Positions 25,819 to 48,809 of a stretch of 64,000 bases of DNA are shown here, in pieces. How positions within the stretch are numbered: position 1 is the first letter of the stretch; the number at the start of each line of letters is the position of its first letter. The notes under the pieces were generated by a model that was not told where the DNA came from, made no database searches, and was given only the letters and a program-made list of their open reading frames with translations. Made by a program: the position numbers and the translations under genes. The DNA is from Anaeroplasma bactoclasticum (lineage in GTDB: Bacteria > Bacillota_I > Bacilli_A > Acholeplasmatales > Anaeroplasmataceae): the NCBI RefSeq assembly GCF_003550015.1, contig NZ_QXEV01000001.1, positions 124,001-188,000 of the forward strand. The letters are read 5' to 3'.

Positions 25819-26508
25819 ATGTCTAGATTTAATTTGACAGAAAAAGAAAAGGAATTATTAAAATACGCATACATAGACAATGATAGAATTGATGAAGGAA
25901 ATCTATTTGATTATCAAGAGGCTGCATTACATATGATTCGTAAATCTAGCGTGTATTTAGAGGTAAGATATCCGAATCATGATTTAGAAATGATATCCTT
26001 CTTACCACAAACAAAAAAGACTCCATATTCTGAGATTCATTTTGTAGAATCTGGTAGTGATGTTACTTATACCTTAAGATGTCAAATGAAAAATGGAGAA
26101 GATACATTTAGTGATAATTTTTATGATGTTCCTTTCGAAAAGGAATATGATAAAAGAGTAGAAAGGCTCTTAAAGGCAAGAAAGATTTCTTCTAGAGTTT
26201 ATACTGTATTTCCTTTTTTAATATCTAATAGAATTGATAGCCTAGAGGATTTATTAAATATGGAAAGGCTATCTAGGAATACAGAGGTATTTATTGGTAT
26301 AGATGAATTTCCTTCTGAGGAGGAAATGCAAAATACATGTTCAAAGATTGAAGATATATTTAAGCAAAATAAGCTATATGGTAGCTGTGTTGTTTATTTT
26401 ATGTTAGATATAGAGGATATGAATAGGGACATATCCTATTTTGATGAATATGTTAAGGATAGAAAGAATCAAAAAAATATAGTTTCTATTGCATTCTATA
26501 CGAAGTAA
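25819..26508 (+). CDS. Hypothetical protein, 229 residues
   Basis: Not recognised. A soluble, acidic protein with mixed alpha/beta character and no signal or membrane segment; the C-terminal half contains FIGIDEFPSEEEMQ and YFMLDIEDMNRDI. ATG 25819 is chosen because GAGGAGGGA precedes it; an in-frame ATG at 25798 lacks a ribosome site. It is the first gene of a probable four-gene operon and ends ten bases before the DUF2974-ligase fusion, so it may work with that protein. Confidence 0.7.
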   Translation: MSRFNLTEKEKELLKYAYIDNDRIDEGNLFDYQEAALHMIRKSSVYLEVRYPNHDLEMISFLPQTKKTPYSEIHFVESGSDVTYTLRCQMKNGEDTFSDNFYDVPFEKEYDKRVERLLKARKISSRVYTVFPFLISNRIDSLEDLLNMERLSRNTEVFIGIDEFPSEEEMQNTCSKIEDIFKQNKLYGSCVVYFMLDIEDMNRDISYFDEYVKDRKNQKNIVSIAFYTK

Positions 26509-26518
26509 GAGGTGTATT

Positions 26519-28975
26519 ATGGCTTTATTTAAAATTGATGAGTTATTGTTAATTGAAAATTTGACCTATTTTGAGGAAACCTTTCCTTTTACAGGAATTA
26601 TTAATTCAAAGGGTTTAACCGTGAAAGAATTTTTAGCTAAGGTTGATATGGATAAAATCGATATGGAATTTGAATATGCAACCTATATGACTGGATTTGA
26701 TTTTAAGAATTTAATCTTAGCTACAAAAAGACATCATAATATTATGGATTGTTATATTGCGGAAACTCATATGGACACTGCCTATGGCGGAGGAAAGGGA
26801 GTATCTGCAGTATTCATTAATGAAAAGTCAAAAGAGGCTGTAGTTGCCTTCCGTGGAACTGCATTAAATGAATGGGTGGATGACTTTGTCGCATCCAATC
26901 AAATTGATTCTTTGCAACAAATTAACGCATTAGAGTGGTATAAACAAATATATGACAAGCTAGAGCTTGAAAAATATACTGTTACAGTTATTGGTCATTC
27001 TAAGGGTGGTAATAAGGCAAAATATATTACAATTTTAAATGATACAGTGAATAGATGTGTATCCTTTGATGGTCAAGGCTTTAGTGATGTATTTATTGAG
27101 CATTATAGGGATAGAATTTTAAAAAGACAGGAATTAATTGAAAACCATAATGTAGATTATGATTATGTAAATATTCTATTAAATGATATTGGTAATAGAA
27201 CATATTATCATGGATATGATTATGGTAAAGGTGGATTTGCAGAAGCACACTGCCCAAATACCTTCTTTGATTTTGAAGAGGATGGAAAGTATAATATCCG
27301 TATTAATTCTGCAGGTCAAGCTCCTGAGATGCAGATATTAGACCAATTTATTAATTCTATGTCTAGAAGTGATTTTTCTGATAAAGAAAGAAATGAAACA
27401 GCTCAGCTTGTTGGTGTTTTAGTTGAGAAGGCATTTTCTATTGGCGCAAGTGAGGAAAATACAGTAACAGATTATATTTCCTTTGTTTGTGATTTAGTTA
27501 AGGATGAAAAATATTCAAATAATACTGCATTCCTATTAGCCTTTGTTATTAAATTCTCTGCCGAAAACAAAGCGTTCCTACCAGCTTTAAAGGATATTAT
27601 GAGACACTTTGGTATGGATGATTTTTCTAATATGATTGATATGATGGGAGAAATTGTCTTATCTAAGAAGCTAGATACTATTGTAAATCTTTCAAATTTC
27701 TTAGCCTTACATGTATCTGGTGTTGTAACAAAGATTATTCAATCTGTTGCGAAAAAGAAATATGGTGTTGAATTAACAAAGGAGCAGGTTAAGGGCATAT
27801 TATTAATTGTTTCTATGACAAAGGAAACCCTAAAGACATTAAAATTGAATTTAGATGGTTCAGATATAGTCTTAGAAAAGGAAATCGAAGAGGAAGCAGA
27901 ATATACACTACCTACAGATTTAAATATTGTTGTTTTATGTGGAGGATTATCCACTCAAAGAAATGTTTCTATTAAAAGTGGTATTTTAGTTTCTGATGCA
28001 TTAAAATTCCATGATTATAATGTAATCTTACTTGATTCATTTATGGGATATGGAGAGGAAGAGGAGATTATTGATGATCCTTTTGATGATCCAGATAAGT
28101 ATTCCTTAAAGATTGATGAATTTACAAATGAAATACCAGATTTATGGGCAGTTAAAAAAAGAAGAAAGGATCAAAGTGGATCTTATTTTGGTCCAAATGT
28201 ACTTCAAATTTGTAAAAAGGCTGATGTGGTTTTCCTAGCTTTACTTGGTGGAGATGCAGAAAATGGTAAGCTTCAAGCTACCTTTGATTTATTAGATATT
28301 GATTATACTGGATGTGATTATTTCTCAAGCGCAATATCTACAAATAAATATGTAGCTAAAGAGATTTTAAGAAGTAATGGTATTCCAGTACCTAAGGGTT
28401 ATTTAATTAAAAAAGGTGAAAATATTATAGAACCAGAAGAAAAGAATATGAATTATCCTGTTGTTGTTAAGCCATGTAATGGTGGAATTGGACTTGGTGT
28501 TAGTGTTGTAATGAATAAGGCTTCCTTCCAAAAAGCGATTAAGGATGCTTACCGCTGGGCACAGGAGATATTAGTTGAGGAATATGTTTCTGGTAGACAG
28601 TTTAGTGTTTCAACAATTAATGGTAAGGCACTTCCTATTTACGAAAGTGCTGCATTAAATACATTAGACGATAAAACAGATTTAGCACTAGATGGTAAAA
28701 TTGTTGAAAACTTTAATAAAAAGTATTCCAATAGATTTGTTAAGGAATTATCTAATCAAGCCGAAAAGGCTGCATATTGTTTAGGCATGAGGGATTATTC
28801 TATGGCAGATTTTATCATAAGAAGTGATGGTACATATGTATGTCTTGAGGTGGATTCCTTACCAGAAATCACAGATGATTCTAGGTTTGCATCATCCGCT
28901 AAGGAAACAGGCATGTCCTTTGATATGCTTTGTGTTAAAATATTAGAGCTTGCCTTATCGAATAAGGGCAAGTAA
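26519..28975 (+). CDS. Fusion of a DUF2974 (Mbeg1-like) alpha/beta hydrolase and a D-alanine-D-alanine-ligase-like ATP-grasp domain
   Basis: 818 residues. Residues 1 to about 300 match the DUF2974/Mbeg1-like lipase fold: AVVAFRGTALNEWVDDF and the nucleophile elbow VIGHSKGGNKAKY with Ser161. A helical linker follows. Residues about 467-818 are a full-length Ddl-like ATP-grasp unit: VVLCGGLSTQRNVSIKSG (Ddl GGxSxERxVSLxSG), then LLGGDAENGKLQATFDLL and IDYTGCD, ATP-binding YPVVVKPCNGGIGLGVSVV and FIIRSDGTYVCLEVDSLP. Ddl joins two D-alanines for peptidoglycan, but substrate choice here is open. ATG 26519 follows AAGAGGTG; the in-frame ATG at 26489 lies inside the previous gene. The fusion is in frame with no stop or frameshift. 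Confidence 0.85.
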   Translation: MALFKIDELLLIENLTYFEETFPFTGIINSKGLTVKEFLAKVDMDKIDMEFEYATYMTGFDFKNLILATKRHHNIMDCYIAETHMDTAYGGGKGVSAVFINEKSKEAVVAFRGTALNEWVDDFVASNQIDSLQQINALEWYKQIYDKLELEKYTVTVIGHSKGGNKAKYITILNDTVNRCVSFDGQGFSDVFIEHYRDRILKRQELIENHNVDYDYVNILLNDIGNRTYYHGYDYGKGGFAEAHCPNTFFDFEEDGKYNIRINSAGQAPEMQILDQFINSMSRSDFSDKERNETAQLVGVLVEKAFSIGASEENTVTDYISFVCDLVKDEKYSNNTAFLLAFVIKFSAENKAFLPALKDIMRHFGMDDFSNMIDMMGEIVLSKKLDTIVNLSNFLALHVSGVVTKIIQSVAKKKYGVELTKEQVKGILLIVSMTKETLKTLKLNLDGSDIVLEKEIEEEAEYTLPTDLNIVVLCGGLSTQRNVSIKSGILVSDALKFHDYNVILLDSFMGYGEEEEIIDDPFDDPDKYSLKIDEFTNEIPDLWAVKKRRKDQSGSYFGPNVLQICKKADVVFLALLGGDAENGKLQATFDLLDIDYTGCDYFSSAISTNKYVAKEILRSNGIPVPKGYLIKKGENIIEPEEKNMNYPVVVKPCNGGIGLGVSVVMNKASFQKAIKDAYRWAQEILVEEYVSGRQFSVSTINGKALPIYESAALNTLDDKTDLALDGKIVENFNKKYSNRFVKELSNQAEKAAYCLGMRDYSMADFIIRSDGTYVCLEVDSLPEITDDSRFASSAKETGMSFDMLCVKILELALSNKGK

Positions 28976-33338: not shown

Positions 33339-33366
33339 AAAAGCCGATTCATCGGCTTTTTCTTTG
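33339..33366 (+). terminator. Terminator of the 25819-33327 operon
   Basis: AAAAGCCGA / TCGGCTTTT stem with a TTCA loop, then TCTTT. Confidence 0.88.
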
Positions 33367-33391
33367 CCATAAAATTTAACTATGGTATAAT
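33364..33391 (+). promoter_or_regulatory. Promoter TTGCCA-16-TATAAT with extended -10
   Basis: -35 TTGCCA at 33364-33369, TATAAT at 33386-33391 preceded by TGG; 31 bases before ATG 33422. Confidence 0.6.
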
Positions 33392-33421: not shown

Positions 33422-36280
33422 ATGAAATTCTTTAATAAAGACAAAAAAGTGGAAGAGAATAAAATAAAAACCTATAACGAAGATGGCTATGATAGTGAAG
33501 GCTATGATATAAGTGGATATGATATCTTTGGTTATGATAGGCTAGGCTGGAATAAGGAAGGCTATAACAAAGAAGGCTATGACCATGATGGCTATAACAA
33601 AAATGGTTATAACAGGGATGGCTTTGATAGAGATGGCTTAGATATGTATGGAATGAATATCGATGGTTATGATAAGCTAGGCTATGATAGATTTGGTTAT
33701 AACAAGGAAGGCTATAATAAAAATGGCTATGATAAATATGGCTATAATAAAGAAGGATATAATTCACAAGGCTATGACAAGGAAGGCTTTAATAAGGAAG
33801 GTCTTAATAAAGATGGATTAAGACGCGAGGATATAAAAATTAAAGCTTATGATGAATTTGGTTATGACCAGGATGGGTATGATAAATATGGCTATAACAA
33901 AGAAGGCTATAATAAGCGTGGCTATAATAAGGAAGGCTATGATAAAGAAGGTTATAACTCTTTAGGCTTTAATAAGGATAATATTCACAAGAATGGTACA
34001 TTGTATGATGAGGATGGCTATAATAGAGAAGGCTTTAATAAAAATGGCTATAACCGCTTGGGCTATGATAAGAATGGAATCCATGAATCTTTAGCCCCAA
34101 GGATTAAAGAATTTAAGCTAGAAGCGAAAAAAAGCTTAGGTAAATTAATTTACCATGAAAAATATGGTGAAGGGAAAATTACTTCTATTACACCTAAATC
34201 CGATTTTAAAAGTGGTTATGCAAAGGTTGAATTTGCTCACGGAATAAAAAAAGAATTCATTTGGCCAGATGCTATTGGTAATTTCTTAACCTTAGATAGT
34301 CTTATTAAAAAGGATGATTCTTTATTAACTTATAGCGAAAAAGAATTTAAAAAAGAAAAAAAATACCTATCTAAGGTATTAGATTATTGTAATTCAAATC
34401 AAGAAAAAGAATATAAAGCTCCAATATTAGTTAGAGATAATTCTTGGAATAATCCATATGATGATGATTATGATTTCCAAGATACAGAAAACCATTTTTA
34501 TAATATTTCTATGAAGGATTATTGGAATAAGGTATCCTTATCTCCATTCTTTGGAAGCTTTATCGATAAGAATGGTTTAAAATATATTGGAAAAGAAGAA
34601 ATACCAGGGCTTGTATATGACTGGAGAAGTAAGGATGCATCTACATATTATGTATATAGATCCTTATTAAATTCTGATTTAGAAATATCTTTAGTTAGAA
34701 ATCATACCATTGAATATAAAAGATATAAATCCTTCATTGATTTATTTAATAAAGAATATCCAAATAGTATTACTTTAGCTACAGAGGATGAGTATTTATC
34801 TAGAATCTTAATAGATTCAAGATTAACAAAGGAAACTCATGATATTATCAATTCTATTCAAAATAAGCAATTTGAAATTATTTCTAATTTAAATAATGAA
34901 AATATCTTAGTAAATGGCTGTGCTGGTTCTGGTAAAACTATGGTTTTATTCCATAAGATTGCATATATGGCTTTTAATCTAGAAAAGTTTAATCCTAGCG
35001 AAGTATTAGTAATATCTTCTAATATTTTACTTAAAAGAGAAGGAGATTTACTTGCTAAAGAATTAAAACTAGATAAGATTAGAAATTATAGCCTAGAGGA
35101 ATTTTATGATTCTTGTATAGATTCTATAATAAAACCTAAAAATATCACTATAGATTATTCCTTTAAAGAAAACAATGAGAAGGCTATAAATCTTTATAAT
35201 GATAAAGCCTTAAAGCCTATTATTTTGGCATTTAAAGAGTTTTTAAATGATTGGGGTAATATTACTCAAGAATACCAAAAATCTTTAAAAAGAAAAGAAG
35301 AAATATTTAAGGATTCTAATTATTTAGATGAGGTATTAAATCTATTTAAAGATATTCCTTTCATGAATTTATTAACGGAATTTAATACCTTAGAAATCAA
35401 AAGAATAAAGGATTTATTTAAGGATTCTATAGAATATAATGATAATGGTTCTATAAAAAAGAAATATAAGAATTCTATAGAATTTAAGGAATTATTAGAG
35501 AAAGATTCTACTATATTAAATAAAGCCTATGCATATATGAATTATAAGAATGAAATTAAGAATTATAATTTATATAAAGAAGGAAAATTAAATGAATTTA
35601 TAGTTCCTTTAGCTTCTTATTTCTTAAATAAAGAAATTAAATATAGCTATAATCCACTAGATTATAAATTCTTAATTCTTTATTTAATTAAAGATTATAT
35701 TAAGGATTATCCATTCACAAATAGAATATTTATTGATGAATATCAAAATTATTCTTTAGTTGAATTTAATTTATTAAAAGAATTATATCCATATGCCACA
35801 TTTAATTTCTTTGGTGATATCAAACAAAGAATAGATGCATCTGGTATTAAATCTAGCTTAGAATTACCATTTATTTGTAAATCTTATGAGCTTAATGTAA
35901 ATTATAGATCTGCAAAAGAGATATGCTGGTATTTAAATAAGAATTATGATACCAATATGGTACCTATTGGTATAAGTGGTATTGCAGAAGAAAAGGACTT
36001 ATCTGAAAAATTATATATTGATGAAGAAAATGATAGATGTGCTTTAATTGTTAAAAGCTTAGAATATACAAAGGAATTAAAGGCTAAGGATAAATGTAAA
36101 TTCATCAATATATTAAATAAAGATAAGATGGATAAGAAATTTATTAACATTTTATTAGTAGATGATGTAAAAGGTCTTGAATTTGAAAAGGTTTATGTTT
36201 ATCCTAAAGGTATGAGCAAAGAAGAGGAATACTTAGCTTCCTCTCGTGCTTTAAGGCATTTAGTAATGTTAAAGGGGTGA
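33422..36280 (+). CDS. UvrD/Rep-type SF1 helicase with an N-terminal array of GYN/GYD pentapeptide repeats
   Basis: 952 residues. After a 20-residue basic start come about 37 repeats of five residues with consensus (D/E/N)G(Y/F)(D/N)(K/R), residues 21-135 and 146-222 with one ten-residue break and one seven-residue insertion. Residues about 240-290 (LGKLIYHEKYGEGKI... AKVEFAHGIKKEFIWPDAI) resemble the Tudor-like DNA/RNA-polymerase-binding tail of UvrD/PcrA, here moved in front of the motor. The motor has Walker A NGCAGSGKT (Lys505), Walker B IFIDEYQN (Asp772-Glu773), motif III FFGDIKQRID, NYRSAKEI, and KGLEFEKVYVYP with SSRALRHL near the end. All core ATPase motifs are present. What the repeat array binds is unknown. 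It is followed directly by the gene at 36285. Confidence 0.85.
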   Translation: MKFFNKDKKVEENKIKTYNEDGYDSEGYDISGYDIFGYDRLGWNKEGYNKEGYDHDGYNKNGYNRDGFDRDGLDMYGMNIDGYDKLGYDRFGYNKEGYNKNGYDKYGYNKEGYNSQGYDKEGFNKEGLNKDGLRREDIKIKAYDEFGYDQDGYDKYGYNKEGYNKRGYNKEGYDKEGYNSLGFNKDNIHKNGTLYDEDGYNREGFNKNGYNRLGYDKNGIHESLAPRIKEFKLEAKKSLGKLIYHEKYGEGKITSITPKSDFKSGYAKVEFAHGIKKEFIWPDAIGNFLTLDSLIKKDDSLLTYSEKEFKKEKKYLSKVLDYCNSNQEKEYKAPILVRDNSWNNPYDDDYDFQDTENHFYNISMKDYWNKVSLSPFFGSFIDKNGLKYIGKEEIPGLVYDWRSKDASTYYVYRSLLNSDLEISLVRNHTIEYKRYKSFIDLFNKEYPNSITLATEDEYLSRILIDSRLTKETHDIINSIQNKQFEIISNLNNENILVNGCAGSGKTMVLFHKIAYMAFNLEKFNPSEVLVISSNILLKREGDLLAKELKLDKIRNYSLEEFYDSCIDSIIKPKNITIDYSFKENNEKAINLYNDKALKPIILAFKEFLNDWGNITQEYQKSLKRKEEIFKDSNYLDEVLNLFKDIPFMNLLTEFNTLEIKRIKDLFKDSIEYNDNGSIKKKYKNSIEFKELLEKDSTILNKAYAYMNYKNEIKNYNLYKEGKLNEFIVPLASYFLNKEIKYSYNPLDYKFLILYLIKDYIKDYPFTNRIFIDEYQNYSLVEFNLLKELYPYATFNFFGDIKQRIDASGIKSSLELPFICKSYELNVNYRSAKEICWYLNKNYDTNMVPIGISGIAEEKDLSEKLYIDEENDRCALIVKSLEYTKELKAKDKCKFINILNKDKMDKKFINILLVDDVKGLEFEKVYVYPKGMSKEEEYLASSRALRHLVMLKG
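33482..34087 (+). repeat. 15-bp-period coding repeat array (GYN/GYD)
   Basis: About 37 units of 15 bases encoding GY(N/D)xx-type pentapeptides, in blocks 33482-33826 and 33857-34087. Many units share GGCTATAA. The array is in frame throughout, so it is a protein repeat, not a CRISPR or satellite. Confidence 0.9.
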
Positions 36281-36284
36281 TATC

Positions 36285-37151
36285 TTGGCTGCCCATATTG
36301 AAAGTTTAAAAGATTTAGAAGGGATTTATAAATACAATGATTGTGATTTATATAAGCTTGGAAAAGAATTTCCAAATCTAGATGATGATATAAGAAATTT
36401 AAATGTGTCTGATAACACATTTAAAAGATGGAATGAAGAATATGTATCTAAGCATATTGAATTATTTAATCCTAAAAATGAAAAAGCAATTGCTTATTTA
36501 AAAAGAGATATCTTCTTAAATGTAGATTATTCCTATACCATTTTACTTTTTGATTGCTTTAAAAGAATTTTAGATATAGATGCTATAGAAGCTTCTGAAA
36601 AGCTTGAATACCTATTAGATATTCATTTTAGCTTATATCCTGGTAAGCAAGAGCCATTTACTGGCTTTATGGGTCTTGCAGTATATAATAAGGATTATGA
36701 TAGATTAAATGAAATGAGAGATATCTATATCGACTTATTATTAAAAGCAAAACCAAAGGATGGTATAGATTCTTATAAGATATTCATTATATTCTCTTTA
36801 GCATATGATTTAGATTATCATCTTGATGATGTAAATAAAAAATATGCCTTAAGAGCTTCTAAGGCATTTGAGGAAGATTTAGATGATGGAGAATCCTTAT
36901 GGCCTATGGTATGCTATTTAACTGGTATAGCAGTAGAAGAAAACTTTAAAAATGCGTATAGAGCATTAAAACTTACTTACGATAAATACCATGAAATCAG
37001 CGATGATTTCTTAAATTATTTAGCATTTATTAACTATATAGCAAAAAGAAATTATACCGTAGATGATGTATTAAAACTAGAATCATTATCTAAGGCAGAA
37101 CCAATGCCAGAATTATCAGAAAAAATTGGCTTATATCCAGGTGAAATGTAA
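36285..37151 (+). CDS. Hypothetical helical protein, TTG start
   Basis: 288 residues, not recognised; predicted mostly helical and tetratricopeptide-like (e.g. KKYALRASKAFEEDL, AYRALKLTYDKYHEI). No signal or membrane segment. The start is TTG 36285, supported by AAAGGGGTGA five bases upstream and the absence of a nearby ATG. It begins four bases after the repeat-helicase stop, so the two are probably translated together and may act as partners. A strong terminator follows. Confidence 0.75.
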   Translation: MAAHIESLKDLEGIYKYNDCDLYKLGKEFPNLDDDIRNLNVSDNTFKRWNEEYVSKHIELFNPKNEKAIAYLKRDIFLNVDYSYTILLFDCFKRILDIDAIEASEKLEYLLDIHFSLYPGKQEPFTGFMGLAVYNKDYDRLNEMRDIYIDLLLKAKPKDGIDSYKIFIIFSLAYDLDYHLDDVNKKYALRASKAFEEDLDDGESLWPMVCYLTGIAVEENFKNAYRALKLTYDKYHEISDDFLNYLAFINYIAKRNYTVDDVLKLESLSKAEPMPELSEKIGLYPGEM

Positions 37152-37154
37152 AAT

Positions 37155-37182
37155 AGCTCCCAATCGGGAGCTTTTACTTTTA
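37155..37182. terminator. Terminator between convergent genes
   Basis: AGCTCCC / GGGAGCT stem with an AATC loop, then TTTTACTTTT. It lies between convergent genes and may serve both strands. Confidence 0.85.
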
Positions 37183-37184
37183 TA

Positions 37185-38624
37185 TTACTTATATTTGTCT
37201 ATTATATAGCTTGCAGAATGAGCTAAGTCTGGTAGCATTGTAGAATCATTAATGCCTACATTCGCAAGCTCTTTAAAGATACCAGCTTTATTTTTAATAA
37301 TGATACGAGGTAAACCTGTTAATGTTCTTGAAGAGAAAATCGGATCATATAAATCTCTTTCATTGTTTAAATAATTACTATCTAATCCAAAAAGAATAAA
37401 TCCACCAGACTGCATACGAACTCTATCATTAATGAATCCAACCTTAACAATTCTAGGTATCATTAGGTTTGAAAAATAGAAGCTATTATAATTATTTTTT
37501 TCAGCAGATACTAAACTAATTAATCGTGCGCAGGATTCTATTTCTGATTCTTTTATTGAGCTAAAAGGGAATCGTTGATTTAAAGTTTTATAAGTTTTAT
37601 TAATTCCCATTCTATATTCTAAAGGACTTATATTGGGTATTATTTCCTTGTTGAATATATCTTCAATATTTTCATTATTAATCTTCTTTAGCACATTCAT
37701 AATTGCATTCTTATCTTCATTTCTTATTTTGGCTAGATTAGCTAAATAAGATACACTAACCATATCGCTATCGTATATACAATTTTTGTGTGAGAAATAA
37801 ACTATTATTTCTCCATACTCTTTTTGTTGATTATCCCCAGTATATATTTTATTTGTTGCCATATATAAGGCTACTAAAGGATTAGTAGTTATATCTAATA
37901 GTCTTGTTTTTAATTCAAAATGCTGCATATCGGTTAATTGTTCAATTGCAGAGTGTCCATTAAAATGATTTGGATGTCTTTGAATCATTTCCTTAACCAT
38001 TTTATCTTCATTTTCACCATTTTTAATTCTAAAAACTGCAGCTTGTTCAGGATATATTGGTGTACTTACCCCACGAAAGAAGACGTCTGTAGGATTATTC
38101 TCATAAGACTCGATGATACTTAAATATTTGTCTTTTCTTTTGTCCCCAGACTCATTTATAATAGTTTTAATTTCAGTGATTGCCTTTTGATATTTTGAAT
38201 CTCCAGATAGGATCTTTTTTCTATACTCTATAGATTCCAAATTCTTAAGTGTATCGCTGAATTTATCTTGTATTAATTTGTATATTTCGGATGTTAAAGT
38301 AAGATCTACATACATTAATTTTATAAAGGTATCTAAGTATCTATAAAAATTTGTCACATTAATATATTGTGATAAGTTTGATACTTCGAATGTTAAACTT
38401 TGTACAGGACCATCATCTGTTATATTTATATATTCAGCAGATTTCAAGAATTCATCTCGTTTTACCTCTTTAACGAATATTTTTTCATTATTAAATCTTA
38501 CAGAACCATCCTTAAGAAAGGATAATTCCCTGTATGAATAATGTTTATTTTCAAATTCTGGTTTTAGCTCAAAATCTGTTATTTCAGCTTCTTTGTTGCT
38601 GCTATTAGTGTAATAAAAACCCAT
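37185..38624 (-). CDS. FRG-domain protein
   Basis: 479 residues. The first 170 residues are unassigned. An FRG domain (PF08867) begins at VFFRGVST (Arg near residue 184) and continues through HPNHF, LTDMQHFELKTRLLDITTNPLVALYMA and a C-terminal ESEIESCARL segment. FRG proteins are of unknown biochemistry and are scattered in mobile and defence loci. The start at 38624 follows GGGGGAA on the minus strand. It is monocistronic and opposite to its neighbours. Confidence 0.8.
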   Translation of the reverse strand: MGFYYTNSSNKEAEITDFELKPEFENKHYSYRELSFLKDGSVRFNNEKIFVKEVKRDEFLKSAEYINITDDGPVQSLTFEVSNLSQYINVTNFYRYLDTFIKLMYVDLTLTSEIYKLIQDKFSDTLKNLESIEYRKKILSGDSKYQKAITEIKTIINESGDKRKDKYLSIIESYENNPTDVFFRGVSTPIYPEQAAVFRIKNGENEDKMVKEMIQRHPNHFNGHSAIEQLTDMQHFELKTRLLDITTNPLVALYMATNKIYTGDNQQKEYGEIIVYFSHKNCIYDSDMVSVSYLANLAKIRNEDKNAIMNVLKKINNENIEDIFNKEIIPNISPLEYRMGINKTYKTLNQRFPFSSIKESEIESCARLISLVSAEKNNYNSFYFSNLMIPRIVKVGFINDRVRMQSGGFILFGLDSNYLNNERDLYDPIFSSRTLTGLPRIIIKNKAGIFKELANVGINDSTMLPDLAHSASYIIDKYK

Positions 38625-44180: not shown

Positions 44181-47100
44181 ATGGCTCTTAGAGTGGATTT
44201 TGGTGGTAGTTATAACGAAAGTCAACAAAGAAAAGCTAATGAAATATATGTTAAGATTCAAAATACATTTTCGAAATTTGAAATGTCTGATAAGGATTTT
44301 TTTGAATTAATGAAAACAAATATTGATGGCTACTATTTTTCATCAGCTAATTTTGATAGAACTGCTGAAAATAGAAATAATGGTGATAAGTTAATAAGAA
44401 ATATATTTTTGAGACCACGTATTGATTCTGAATTTTCTCAAATGTTGGAAGGCAATGGGTTTATTTTAATTGGGGATGTTTTTATTAATCCTCGAGAAGA
44501 AAGATCATATTTTTCTGTAAATGACTTTTATTTATGTGAGAATAGTTCTCAAATGGAATATGAAGTATTTGCAAATGCTCCAATTAATTTGAGAACTTTA
44601 TACGATGAATGGGATTTAAGACAAACTAATACTGTTCTTAATCTTGATTTGATATCTGAATTACCATACATTGTATCACCTATTAAATTTAAACGTTTCA
44701 TAAAAAAGTGGGAAAGCTACTTAGAATTTGAATATGAATTAACAAAAATGGGAATAAAGTATAAAACAATTAAGAATCTAAGATTTGATGTTTTATATGA
44801 AGTAAATGCAAATGAAATCAATAGGGATACATATAAGAATGATATTCTTGTTGAATTTGAAAAAAAACTGTATGTTAAAGAGAATTCACAGTATTTGACA
44901 GGTGAAGAAAATCAATATGTATTTGCATCTATTGAATTGGATAAGAGTAGTGATTTAAAGTCATTCTTTAATCAATCATTATCGCTTGTTGCGAAAAGAA
45001 GAAAAGGATTACTAGATAAACTTATTAATGGTGAAGATGTTGAGGATATTGTTCAAGTACCTCTTGGAGAATTTTTAATGTCTAAAGACACAGAATTTAA
45101 AACAACCATTGCGTATTTTTATGTACCAGATGCAATTGATGATGAAGGTAATGCTGATCTAGCAAGCTTTAGAGAAGCGAATAAACATACATTAGATGAT
45201 GATCCAGTATTAGCTAGTACAGCAACTGGAGATATAGCATTGTATAAGCGCGGTAAAGCCGCAATCGATAATATGAAAAAAGGAAAGGTTAAAAATCCTT
45301 TCTTAGTAGGACTATTAATTGATCCGGCTCATTTTGAATCTCATGTAGAATTGTATAATGAAGATAATGTTGAATTTGCACTTGAAAAGAAACTTAATTC
45401 AAGCCAAAAAGCAGCGATTATCAAAGCTTTAAACAGTAATAGTATATTTGCACTTCAAGGTCCTCCTGGAACTGGTAAAACACAAACAATAACAGAACTT
45501 GTATATCAATATAATAAAATGGGGAAGAAGGTTTTAATTTCTTCACAGACACATATCGCTATTGATAATGTTATTGAACGTTTACCACATGAAATGAATA
45601 TATTGCCTATTAGATTAGTTAAAGATACAAAACGAGCAAATGTCAAGTATTTACCAGATAAATTATTAGATAATCTTTATGAGTCTGCATATGATAAGTT
45701 TTCAGAGAAGATAGAAAATTACAATAATTTCTCTAAAGAAATAGATGCAATTCAAGCTCATTTTGAGAGTAATAAAGAGTTATATTCTAATATTAAGAGT
45801 AGACAACAGAAATGTGATAAATTAAATGATGAAATATCTGGCCTTAGAAAAGAATCACAAATATATGCAGACCAATTACTTGAATTAGAACGTGAAGAAA
45901 AGAAAGCTCAAGCAAATAAAAAATTCTTGCTTGAATATTATAATAACGAGCTTGATTTTAATAAAATTACTGATGATATTTATAATGAAAAATATTATGA
46001 AATGCTCGAAAGTTTGTTTAAAGAATTAGGCTTTGATGAAGAAGAATCAATCACAGATCATATTCTAATGCTTAAGAGAAGAATTGGAACAACTAGAATA
46101 GAACTTTTAAATGAATTATCAAATGGAAAAACAGGGAAATCTAAAGAATATATTGATATAGAAAAACAAATAGAAGACCAGAAAAATGCAATTAAGGCAT
46201 TAGAAGCTATGAATAATCCATCTTTAGCATCTGCAATCGAAACAACAAGAAGTAACATTAATTCTCTTTTAAGAAAATTAAAGGATCTTGATGAAGACGG
46301 TGGAGAAAAGATTGTTGATCTTTCAAATACAACTTTCTATTTTGTTAAAGATAAATCAAATCCTGAAATGGCTATTTCAGAGGAAATCAAGCATATAAAT
46401 AATGCAAATGAATTGTATAAAAAACATGTTAGGAATTTAATGAACAGCAAATTTATTAAATCGTTAGAAGAAAATGATGTTTCTAAAGAAAAAGAAAAAG
46501 TAGATGAAGAATATAGACGAGTTGATGTAAAAATTAAGGGTCTTGAACAGGAACTTAAAGAATATTTAGAACCTATTAAAACCCAAAGAGAACATTTAAC
46601 TGAGTATTTTAATTCATTCTTTTCTGAAAAATTAAATAATAATTCATTGCCTGAATCTGATGAAGAAAAGTTTAATAGAATTCAAGAATATATTAATGAA
46701 CAGCAAGAACAATTTGAAGAATTCAAAGAAAATTACGATTTATATCGCCAAATTTATGAAGATAGTGTTCAATTGCTAAAAGATAGAAAGAATATTTTAG
46801 GCAGACAAAGAATTAAATTTACAAAAGATTTGTTTATAAATAATGCAAATGTGTATGGAATTACTTGTACATCATCGGCAACTTTCTATTCTGATAGAAA
46901 CGATTATCTTAAAGCCCTTAATATTGGTGATGTTGATGTTTCTAAACAAGACTTTGATGTCGTAATTATTGATGAGGTTTCCAAAGCAAATCCTATTGAA
47001 ATTATGATTCCGCTTTTATATGGAAAGAGTGTCGTTTTAGTTGGAGACCAAAGACAATTACCACCAATATTTAAATATAGAGATTCAATGTTTAAAGATT

Positions 47101-48809
47101 TCACTGATAGTCAAATGAGTAAACTTTTTAAGAATTACACATTAGACCAAATAAAAGAACAAGTTGAAAGCAGCTTGTTTGAAGAAATTTATAACTTATT
47201 AAAATACAATAAAGCAATGCTTACTCAACAATATCGTTTTAATAGTCAGATTATGAAATGCGTTAATGTATTTTATAATGATAAACTTGAAGCTGGGTGG
47301 GGAAGTGCTCAGGATAATAAGAAGCAACATTACTTGAAAGTTGATTATAAGCATAAAGGTAAGGATGTTGTAATTTTTGATCCTAAGTATTCTACATATT
47401 GGTTTAATACTAATAAATATGCAGATGATGTTGTAGCGTATGAGAAGTCTAAAGAAGGGAAAACCTCTCTATATAATGAATTAGAAGGGAAAGTAACCTA
47501 TGAACTATTAAAGCTTTTAGACTTAGGATATGGAGATTTAAAAAAGAATACACCTGCAACATATGAAAAGGCAATCGAGACAACAGAAAATAAAAAACCA
47601 AGTGTGGCAGTAGTTTCTATGTATGGTGCTCAAATTGGGTATATAAAGAATTTAATCAAAAATGACAAATATAAGTTTGCTAATATAGATGTAGATATTT
47701 CCACTGTTGATAATTATCAAGGCAAAGAAAAAGACATCATCATAGTAAATTTTGTTAGAAATAACAAAAGAGGAGATGCAGGAGAATTCATTAAGAAATT
47801 CAACCGTATTAACGTAGCTATATCAAGAGCTAGAAATATGTTAATTGTTGTTGGAAGCAAAGTAGCATATTTATCAAATGATGAATATGAATCTTATTTA
47901 AATGGTAAAACAATAAAAAACAAAGAAGTTCCAGCACATTATGATAAAGATGGTAACCTCTTAGATGTATCATGCATGAAATCAACAGCCTTTTTCACAG
48001 AAAGTCGGCAATATTTAAATGATTATGAGACTGCCCTTATAGGATTTGATTTGATGAAGCCAATAATGAAGAATAGGATGATTCAGTTTATTGAAGATTC
48101 CTCAGTGTCTTCAAAAGTATCTCAAAACTCTAAGTTTAATTTTTTTATATCAAGTAGGTATAAAGATATACTTGGTAGAGTAGAAAAATATTACTATAAA
48201 GAAAAAAATAATTTTGCTTTTAATAAAAAACTAAATAGTATGTTAGGTTTTGTCACAGAATACTGTGCCAAAATAAAACTAGATTATTCTTTGCCAAATG
48301 TTGTTGATAAAGAATTTAATATGTTTGGTAATGGAAAAAGAGCGAAAGACTCTAAGATGATTAGAAAAGCCATACTATTATATAAAAATCAAATGAAAAG
48401 TGTTTTTAGTTCAGAAATATCAAAAAGAATCCCTACACTTACAGTATGGAAACTATTAGATGCTGCATATGATTCTTTTGTTTCTACGGTTGATAAATTA
48501 TCTAATAGAGCAGTGGAATTGATAAAGAGTTTTTCTATTGAAAAAGAAAAATACATGGAATATGCTGATTTATCTGTTAGGCATATTAGAGGTTTAGCAG
48601 ATTTTATTGATGACAAAAATATATTAGATTTAAAGTGTACAGCTTGTATTAATGAAATATATATCAAACAAGTATTAGCATATTATTATTTATCACAAAA
48701 AAGAGGCTTATCTATTGAAAATGTAATTGTATATGATGCCGTATCAAATAGATATATAAAAATAAATATGAATACTACTGAAATTATTACTAATTATGAA
48801 TTAAAATGA
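44181..48809 (+). CDS. Large SF1 (Upf1/DNA2-like) helicase
   Basis: 1542 residues. Residues 1-400 are an unassigned N-terminal domain. The helicase core has Walker A QGPPGTGKTQT (Lys433), SSQTHIAIDNVIERL, then a coiled-coil insertion of about 360 residues (about 510-870, rich in Glu/Lys). Next come Walker B VIIDEVSKANP (Asp931-Glu932), VLVGDQRQLPP, VDNYQGKEKDIIIVNFVR and NVAISRARNMLIVVG. This is the SF1B order. The C-terminal 300 residues are unassigned and end with LKCTACINEIYIKQVLAYYY. It may unwind DNA, RNA or hybrids. ATG 44181 follows TTGGAGG. A long coiled-coil insertion recalls defence- or repair-associated helicases, but no known system was matched. Confidence 0.85.
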   Translation: MALRVDFGGSYNESQQRKANEIYVKIQNTFSKFEMSDKDFFELMKTNIDGYYFSSANFDRTAENRNNGDKLIRNIFLRPRIDSEFSQMLEGNGFILIGDVFINPREERSYFSVNDFYLCENSSQMEYEVFANAPINLRTLYDEWDLRQTNTVLNLDLISELPYIVSPIKFKRFIKKWESYLEFEYELTKMGIKYKTIKNLRFDVLYEVNANEINRDTYKNDILVEFEKKLYVKENSQYLTGEENQYVFASIELDKSSDLKSFFNQSLSLVAKRRKGLLDKLINGEDVEDIVQVPLGEFLMSKDTEFKTTIAYFYVPDAIDDEGNADLASFREANKHTLDDDPVLASTATGDIALYKRGKAAIDNMKKGKVKNPFLVGLLIDPAHFESHVELYNEDNVEFALEKKLNSSQKAAIIKALNSNSIFALQGPPGTGKTQTITELVYQYNKMGKKVLISSQTHIAIDNVIERLPHEMNILPIRLVKDTKRANVKYLPDKLLDNLYESAYDKFSEKIENYNNFSKEIDAIQAHFESNKELYSNIKSRQQKCDKLNDEISGLRKESQIYADQLLELEREEKKAQANKKFLLEYYNNELDFNKITDDIYNEKYYEMLESLFKELGFDEEESITDHILMLKRRIGTTRIELLNELSNGKTGKSKEYIDIEKQIEDQKNAIKALEAMNNPSLASAIETTRSNINSLLRKLKDLDEDGGEKIVDLSNTTFYFVKDKSNPEMAISEEIKHINNANELYKKHVRNLMNSKFIKSLEENDVSKEKEKVDEEYRRVDVKIKGLEQELKEYLEPIKTQREHLTEYFNSFFSEKLNNNSLPESDEEKFNRIQEYINEQQEQFEEFKENYDLYRQIYEDSVQLLKDRKNILGRQRIKFTKDLFINNANVYGITCTSSATFYSDRNDYLKALNIGDVDVSKQDFDVVIIDEVSKANPIEIMIPLLYGKSVVLVGDQRQLPPIFKYRDSMFKDFTDSQMSKLFKNYTLDQIKEQVESSLFEEIYNLLKYNKAMLTQQYRFNSQIMKCVNVFYNDKLEAGWGSAQDNKKQHYLKVDYKHKGKDVVIFDPKYSTYWFNTNKYADDVVAYEKSKEGKTSLYNELEGKVTYELLKLLDLGYGDLKKNTPATYEKAIETTENKKPSVAVVSMYGAQIGYIKNLIKNDKYKFANIDVDISTVDNYQGKEKDIIIVNFVRNNKRGDAGEFIKKFNRINVAISRARNMLIVVGSKVAYLSNDEYESYLNGKTIKNKEVPAHYDKDGNLLDVSCMKSTAFFTESRQYLNDYETALIGFDLMKPIMKNRMIQFIEDSSVSSKVSQNSKFNFFISSRYKDILGRVEKYYYKEKNNFAFNKKLNSMLGFVTEYCAKIKLDYSLPNVVDKEFNMFGNGKRAKDSKMIRKAILLYKNQMKSVFSSEISKRIPTLTVWKLLDAAYDSFVSTVDKLSNRAVELIKSFSIEKEKYMEYADLSVRHIRGLADFIDDKNILDLKCTACINEIYIKQVLAYYYLSQKRGLSIENVIVYDAVSNRYIKINMNTTEIITNYELK

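Follow-up and report, generated by a model that had tools for sequence, protein, structure and literature searches.

The ATP-driven motor HelD removes RNA polymerase that has stalled on DNA, and it affects rifampicin tolerance. The Tudor domains of PcrA/UvrD, CarD and Mfd dock on the beta subunit of RNA polymerase. The classical pentapeptide-repeat proteins of family PF00805 fold into a right-handed quadrilateral beta-helix. HelD carries an absolutely conserved DWR motif and was reported to be without helicase activity (PMC8655204). PcrA depends on H681, W684, K712 and L714 to bind RNA polymerase (PMC5397179), and its Tudor domain recognises the motif [VIL]DxxTGE[VIL][VILT] (PMC8318588).

We analyzed a window of 64,000 nucleotides from Anaeroplasma bactoclasticum (contig NZ_QXEV01000001.1, positions 124,001 to 188,000 of the forward strand). 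The host is a rumen bacterium of the Anaeroplasma type. One gene of the window encodes a protein in which a pentapeptide array, a Tudor-like segment and a superfamily 1 (SF1) motor follow each other in this order, and a second gene lies directly downstream. The features of this locus, in window coordinates, are as follows:

33340..33363, plus strand: intrinsic-terminator-like hairpin with a T run, closing the upstream gene (recognized by eye; unlisted by the pattern scan)
33364..33391, plus strand: extended -10 promoter-like site (TTGCCA-16-TATAAT, including TG) lying 30 bases ahead of the start codon (consensus match only, 11/12)
33422..36280, plus strand: open reading frame of 952 aa, GYD repeat, Tudor domain and HelD-like motor
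33473..34090, plus strand: pentapeptide array, residues 18-223, 36 G(Y/F)(D/N)xx units in three blocks (unit scan, AF2)
34094..34135, plus strand: linker helix, residues 225-238 (AF2)
34136..34291, plus strand: predicted Tudor/SH3-like barrel, residues 239-290 (AF2, Foldseek, VIA)
34331..34546, plus strand: presumed secondary-channel arm (pike), residues 304-375, shortened (alignment with HelD proteins)
34619..34627, plus strand: DWR motif, residues 400-402 (HelD-diagnostic, PMC8655204)
34916..34939, plus strand: Walker A GCAGSGKT, residues 499-506
35132..35701, plus strand: presumed clamp-arm (bumper) insert, residues ~571-760 (boundaries inferred)
35726..35749, plus strand: Walker B IFIDEYQN, residues 769-776
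35813..35911, plus strand: motif III GDIKQR (798-803) to motif IV NYRS (827-830)
36167..36250, plus strand: motif V VKGLEF (916-921) to motif VI YLASSRA (937-943)
36285..37151, plus strand: 288-aa protein, second gene of the two-gene unit
37155..37172: bidirectional terminator closing the two-gene unit

Taken together, these features indicate that the protein is probably an RNA-polymerase-recycling ATPase, HelD-like but divergent, to which a targeting module has been added at the N-terminus. The preliminary description had called the motor a UvrD-like helicase, and the alternative that follows from this name is a DNA helicase of the UvrD/PcrA type with a rearranged Tudor domain. This alternative draws on the generic UvrD-helicase domain matches in Pfam (E 3.8e-9) and on the PcrA/UvrD-like fold predicted for the Tudor segment; however, the HelD profiles and PDB chains are matched better. 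The best NCBIfam profile is HelD_BACSU (E 1.8e-19), and the best PDB sequence match is B. subtilis HelD (6wvk, 1e-13, compared with 0.015 for UvrD). The motor scores 18.6 bits on the PcrA model TIGR01073, on which the PcrA encoded elsewhere by the host scores 734. The protein has the DWR motif, which precedes Walker A by 99 residues, compared with 97 in 20 HelD-like proteins of its class, and is followed by SK instead of the usual (A/S)P. In two trees, the motor and its orthologue were placed among the HelD proteins and were split 100/100 from the host PcrA and E. coli helicase IV. The ATPase motifs noticed earlier are all there: motifs I, II, III, IV, V and VI are intact and span residues 499-943, motif VI ending 9 residues before the C-terminus. 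Motifs IV and V are separated by only 88 residues, which is too short for the 2B domain of UvrD/PcrA, and the protein therefore lacks this domain. Thus, judged by its sequence, the motor is divergent HelD-like and not of the UvrD/PcrA type, and a UvrD/PcrA helicase is very unlikely here. The word "helicase" itself is probably wrong for this motor, because HelD shows no helicase activity (PMC8655204).

The score of the motor on the HelD_BACSU equivalog model NF041464 is far below the cut-off (69.2 bits versus 419), and for this reason we call it HelD-like rather than HelD. The branch leading to it is very long, 3.7-4.7 changes per column; the very low equivalog score and the very long branch suggest that the motor may have changed its partner or function. 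Comparison with the class I HelD of B. subtilis (PDB 6WVK, 6ZCA) revealed several shared features: (i) an SF1 ATPase core without 2B, (ii) the DWR Trp-cage motif, (iii) an N-terminal arm region, (iv) a large insert that separates Walker A from Walker B, and (v) RNA polymerase as the expected target. The Anaeroplasma protein differs by its extra 300-residue N-terminus, shortened arm, DWRSK in place of DWR(A/S)P, and strong divergence. The secondary-channel arm and the segment ahead of DWR are both shortened; the arm region measures 63 residues between two invariant positions versus 57-81 in HelD relatives, and Walker A and Walker B lie 267 residues apart versus 229-287, so that these spacings fall inside or close to the range of HelD proteins. 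In the middle of the arm, a conserved acidic stretch, NNPYD(D/E)DYD, parallels the arm tip of B. subtilis HelD with its acidic residues D56, D57 and E60 (PMC7749165), a likeness that is suggestive only. In a full-length AF2 model built with a three-row alignment, the motor had pLDDT values under 50.

The Tudor-like segment that the preliminary description had placed ahead of the motor was recovered at residues 239-290, where AF2 (run on residues 1-296 with three natural sequences; mean pLDDT 82.9) predicts a barrel at residues 242-281. The top three Foldseek matches are the PcrA/UvrD Tudor domains 5dma, 6yi2 and 7egs, with probability 1.00 but E 0.08-0.18. VIA gave Z 7.1 over 55 residues to 7egs_B, the UvrD Tudor domain in complex with the RNA polymerase lobe, and CarD scored nearly as high. 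Although a Z of 7 is generally modest, Tudor domains that bind RNA polymerase make up many of the top rows. The Pfam model PF21196 matched the orthologue at E 0.19 and 12.1 bits, compared with a gathering score of 23.9, and the A. bactoclasticum sequence matched CarD_TRCF_RID instead (E 0.22). By the predicted barrel and its structural matches, the Tudor assignment is supported, the fold itself being a predicted one. Of the PcrA contact residues, H681 and W684 correspond to H245 and Y248 (F at 248 in the orthologue), K712 corresponds to K276 or K277 (an ambiguous assignment, K276 being E in the orthologue), and L714 probably to F279. The host RpoB sequence FDDETGELL is one residue off the helicase-interaction motif.

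The predicted five-strand barrel, the histidine and aromatic contact positions and the expected contact with the RNA polymerase beta subunit are thus shared with the Tudor domains of PcrA/UvrD (PDB 5DMA, 7EGS) and the interaction domains of CarD and Mfd, whereas the position ahead of a HelD-like motor, the shifted or ambiguous contact lysine and the sequence profile score below cut-off are not. The idea that this domain was displaced from the C-terminus of the host PcrA has to be dropped: PcrA is a separate protein that retains its own C-terminal Tudor domain.

The open reading frame lies at the coordinates given before. Its N-terminal array consists of 36 units of the form G(Y/F/W/L/M/I)(D/N)xx at residues 22-219, compared with the approximately 37 GYN/GYD repeats of the preliminary description. 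The exact spacing of 5 residues is interrupted twice, by segments of 15 and 17 residues (at about 133-147 and 183-199), the second of which reads GFNKDNIHKNGTLYDEDGY. The longest unbroken run contains 23 units; the maximum in 2000 composition-preserving shuffles was 2. The 205 residues of the array include 32 Tyr, 37 Gly, 53 Asp/Asn and 31 Lys/Arg. A three- or four-unit superperiod was sought in the arrays, and lag-3 z values of 1.2-2.2 were obtained in a few of them, none strong.

The glycine codons of the array (33473-34090) are biased towards GGC, which accounts for 23/37 (62%) of them versus 140/979 (14%) in the other genes of the window. The same bias is seen in the array of the orthologue (26/36 Gly codons), and the agreement between the two in GGC positions is no better than composition predicts.

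The gene is present in 2/55 genomes of the family and 2/160 of the order, and the sole orthologue among these comes from an uncultured Anaeroplasma sp. genome. Identity between the two proteins is 65%, and no gaps fall within the aligned array, the sole gap of the N-terminal region being one residue upstream of the first unit. The unit glycine is kept at 35/36 positions, and most replacements at the second and third unit positions exchange Y for F or D for N. Since Ks is near 1, the Ka/Ks ratios are approximate; they were 0.25/1.15 for the array (dN/dS about 0.22), 0.35/1.11 for the Tudor domain, 0.10/0.76 for 1A, 0.20/1.25 for 2A and 0.46/0.65 for the clamp-arm region, which is the fastest-evolving part (dN/dS 0.71). 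As far as such approximate ratios indicate, the array is under purifying selection on a fixed pattern.

The preliminary description had allowed for a decaying, unconserved low-complexity expansion, and the repeat could also be read as a neutral simple-sequence expansion without function, since a tandem repeat is visible in the DNA. The array is not decaying low-complexity sequence, because the orthologue keeps the register at 65% protein identity and with dN/dS of about 0.22. At the DNA level the units have diverged, also at silent sites (mean unit-to-unit identity 64%; 1/595 pairs identical), and so the array is old and not a fresh product of slippage. With these observations, a neutral expansion retains almost no probability.

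The shape of the array was approached by comparison with known repeats and by modelling. The PF00805 proteins (Qnr, MfpA) share with it a five-residue period, long unbroken arrays and an aromatic or hydrophobic centre, but their published consensus, (A/C/S/V/T/L/I)(..)(L/F)(..)(..), has a small residue two positions before the hydrophobic one (PMC8145042), whereas in the array the i-2 position is not a small residue and i-1 is Gly. Its units, G(Y/F)(D/N)(K/R)x, deviate from this consensus and a PF00805 search of the array gave no match at E up to 10; by its sequence, the array is thus not a classical pentapeptide repeat. No family matching the array was found in Pfam, NCBIfam or PHROGs, and no literal repeat strings were found in the text of papers. 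The PDB and viral-structure matches listed for the N-terminal model are taken up by the Tudor domain and not by the array.

The solenoid suggested in the preliminary description is favored by prediction: in the AF2 model of residues 1-296, pLDDT is mostly 87-94 across the array (about 90). AF2 is prone to over-confidence on perfect repeats, and its DSSP assignment of the array consists of isolated bridges with almost no regular or long strands. The array may form an ordered rod or solenoid; taken alone, its role as a rod or docking surface is a tentative proposal, to which we give somewhat less than an even chance. The array could instead be intrinsically disordered, a sticker-and-spacer region by which the motor would be concentrated on nucleic acids or in condensates, as its 36 mostly aromatic stickers and charged spacers, the swaps of Y/F and D/N between the orthologues and the scarcity of regular strands in the model would suggest. 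Disordered stickers need neither an exact period nor a fixed number of units, whereas the array keeps a strict 5-residue register across species and phyla and is modelled with high pLDDT; a sticker region is therefore rather doubtful. The contribution of the array, be it a rod or docking surface or a disordered sticker region, is the weakest step of the functional reading.

In a motor protein such a repeat is unusual, as noted before, but it is not specific to helicases: it occurs in many unrelated bacterial proteins, many of them secreted, in about eight phyla. Related arrays were found in contigs labelled Firmicutes, Clostridia, Thiohalocapsa, Cetobacterium, Thermotogae, Endomicrobiellum, Kurthia, Ignavibacteria and Nocardia, and also in Fusobacterium, Gordonia and Euzebya. 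The G(Y/F)(D/N)(K/R)x proteins (a Fusobacteriaceae PelG fusion, Endomicrobiellum lipoproteins, and proteins of Clostridia, Gordonia plasmids and Thermotogae) share with the Anaeroplasma protein both the repeat and a similar break motif, G(I/L)HK..GT.YD..G(Y/F), and differ from it in having no HelD motor. Several of the relatives are lipoprotein-like or secreted, and because it occurs in secreted proteins the array is not specific for RNA polymerase. In the Clostridia protein L052, the array is directly followed by a Tudor-like domain; the combination of array and Tudor domain is thus not unique to Anaeroplasma.

The search for the repeat in fusion with other enzymes, which the preliminary description had proposed, yielded one fusion with kinase and FGE-sulfatase domains and two PelG fusions. 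The former is a 1065-aa protein from a Thermotogae-labelled contig (L055:10001-13195), in which GYD repeats are combined with kinase-like and FGE-sulfatase domains. A second array protein, encoded elsewhere in the genome of the HelD-like protein (L002:811-1740), has ISISASGVKK-type repeats followed by a GYD array, and no enzyme domain. In the PelG fusions (L084 and L087, from Cetobacterium and Fusobacterium), the exopolysaccharide transporter ORF is followed by a lipobox-like segment and a GYD-type repeat tail. A Candidatus Endomicrobiellum contig (L056) carries a cluster of three lipoprotein-like GYD repeat proteins, with 12 repeat matches in the genome. Scans of viral contigs gave no relatives of the array, one HelD-like protein (L060) and some weak UvrD-like stretches; the phage collection gave no repeat matches and weak motor matches only.

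The analysis shows the architecture of the protein, its conservation, the family of the motor, a predicted Tudor fold and the linkage to the second gene, whereas binding and recycling of RNA polymerase and the role of the array are inferred. Most likely, the protein uses ATP to remove or remodel RNA polymerase, to which its Tudor domain would tether it. In the proposed mechanism, (i) the Tudor domain would dock on the RNA polymerase beta subunit, as in PcrA/UvrD, CarD and Mfd, (ii) docking would deliver the HelD core, the short acidic arm entering the secondary channel, (iii) the clamp arm would open the main channel, and (iv) ATP binding and hydrolysis would drive release of the trapped nucleic acid and of the motor. 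The array, as an ordered or rigid rod or solenoid, would serve as a spacer or as a surface on which another partner docks, perhaps the 288-aa protein encoded with it. A more far-reaching version of this reading, in which the G(Y/F)(D/N)xx array is an undescribed family of folded solenoids in about eight phyla and has been taken up in Anaeroplasma by a Tudor-tethered HelD motor as a module for recognition or spacing that determines which of the stalled RNA polymerases are removed, is a conjecture that we hold to be unlikely in full. The joining of a HelD-like motor and a remodeller-type Tudor domain would bring two recruitment logics together in one protein, and the architecture suggests that a motor for clearing polymerase is attached to its target in an unusual way. 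The pentapeptide array is widespread and unnamed, strongly predicted to be ordered, and not represented by any family model of the libraries searched; a name and a solved structure for it would explain a class of bacterial proteins that extends from lipoproteins to motors.

The second gene of the unit starts 4 bases past the stop codon of the motor gene. Its 288-aa product is 71% identical at the orthologous locus, the two genes occur in the same 2/55 genomes of the family, and no family match was found for the protein in Pfam, NCBIfam or PADLOC. The host also encodes an acidic-tailed delta subunit, and in B. subtilis the delta subunit cooperates with HelD (PMC7749165).

Two further genes of the window matched models of defence genes. 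The next gene, at 37185-38624 on the minus strand, encodes an FRG-domain protein matching PDC-S15 (PADLOC E 3.7e-56; Pfam FRG 5e-12), and the gene at 44181-48809 on the plus strand encodes a 1542-aa protein with strong matches to PADLOC MkoA models (E 2.9e-97). Gabija GajB was considered for the motor and rejected, since its matches (E 1.3e-10) are confined to the SF1 motifs and the neighbouring protein has no PADLOC model match.

The two-gene unit might accordingly be viewed as an accessory defence system whose motor acts on invading nucleic acid or on phage-modified transcription. Its patchy distribution among the genomes of the family and order, the FRG gene of the PDC-S15 defence candidates next to it, the MkoA-like gene and the weak GajB-type helicase matches are in line with this possibility. 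At the orthologous locus, however, the FRG gene does not adjoin the pair; the GajB matches are limited to shared helicase motifs and no GajA-like nuclease is adjacent, and the similarity to HelD is stronger. A defence system is thus quite improbable, and recycling of RNA polymerase by a Tudor-tethered HelD-like motor remains the preferred reading. Upstream of the unit, the gene at 26489-28975 on the plus strand encodes an 828-aa protein that combines an Mbeg1-like hydrolase region with a complete D-Ala-D-Ala ligase.
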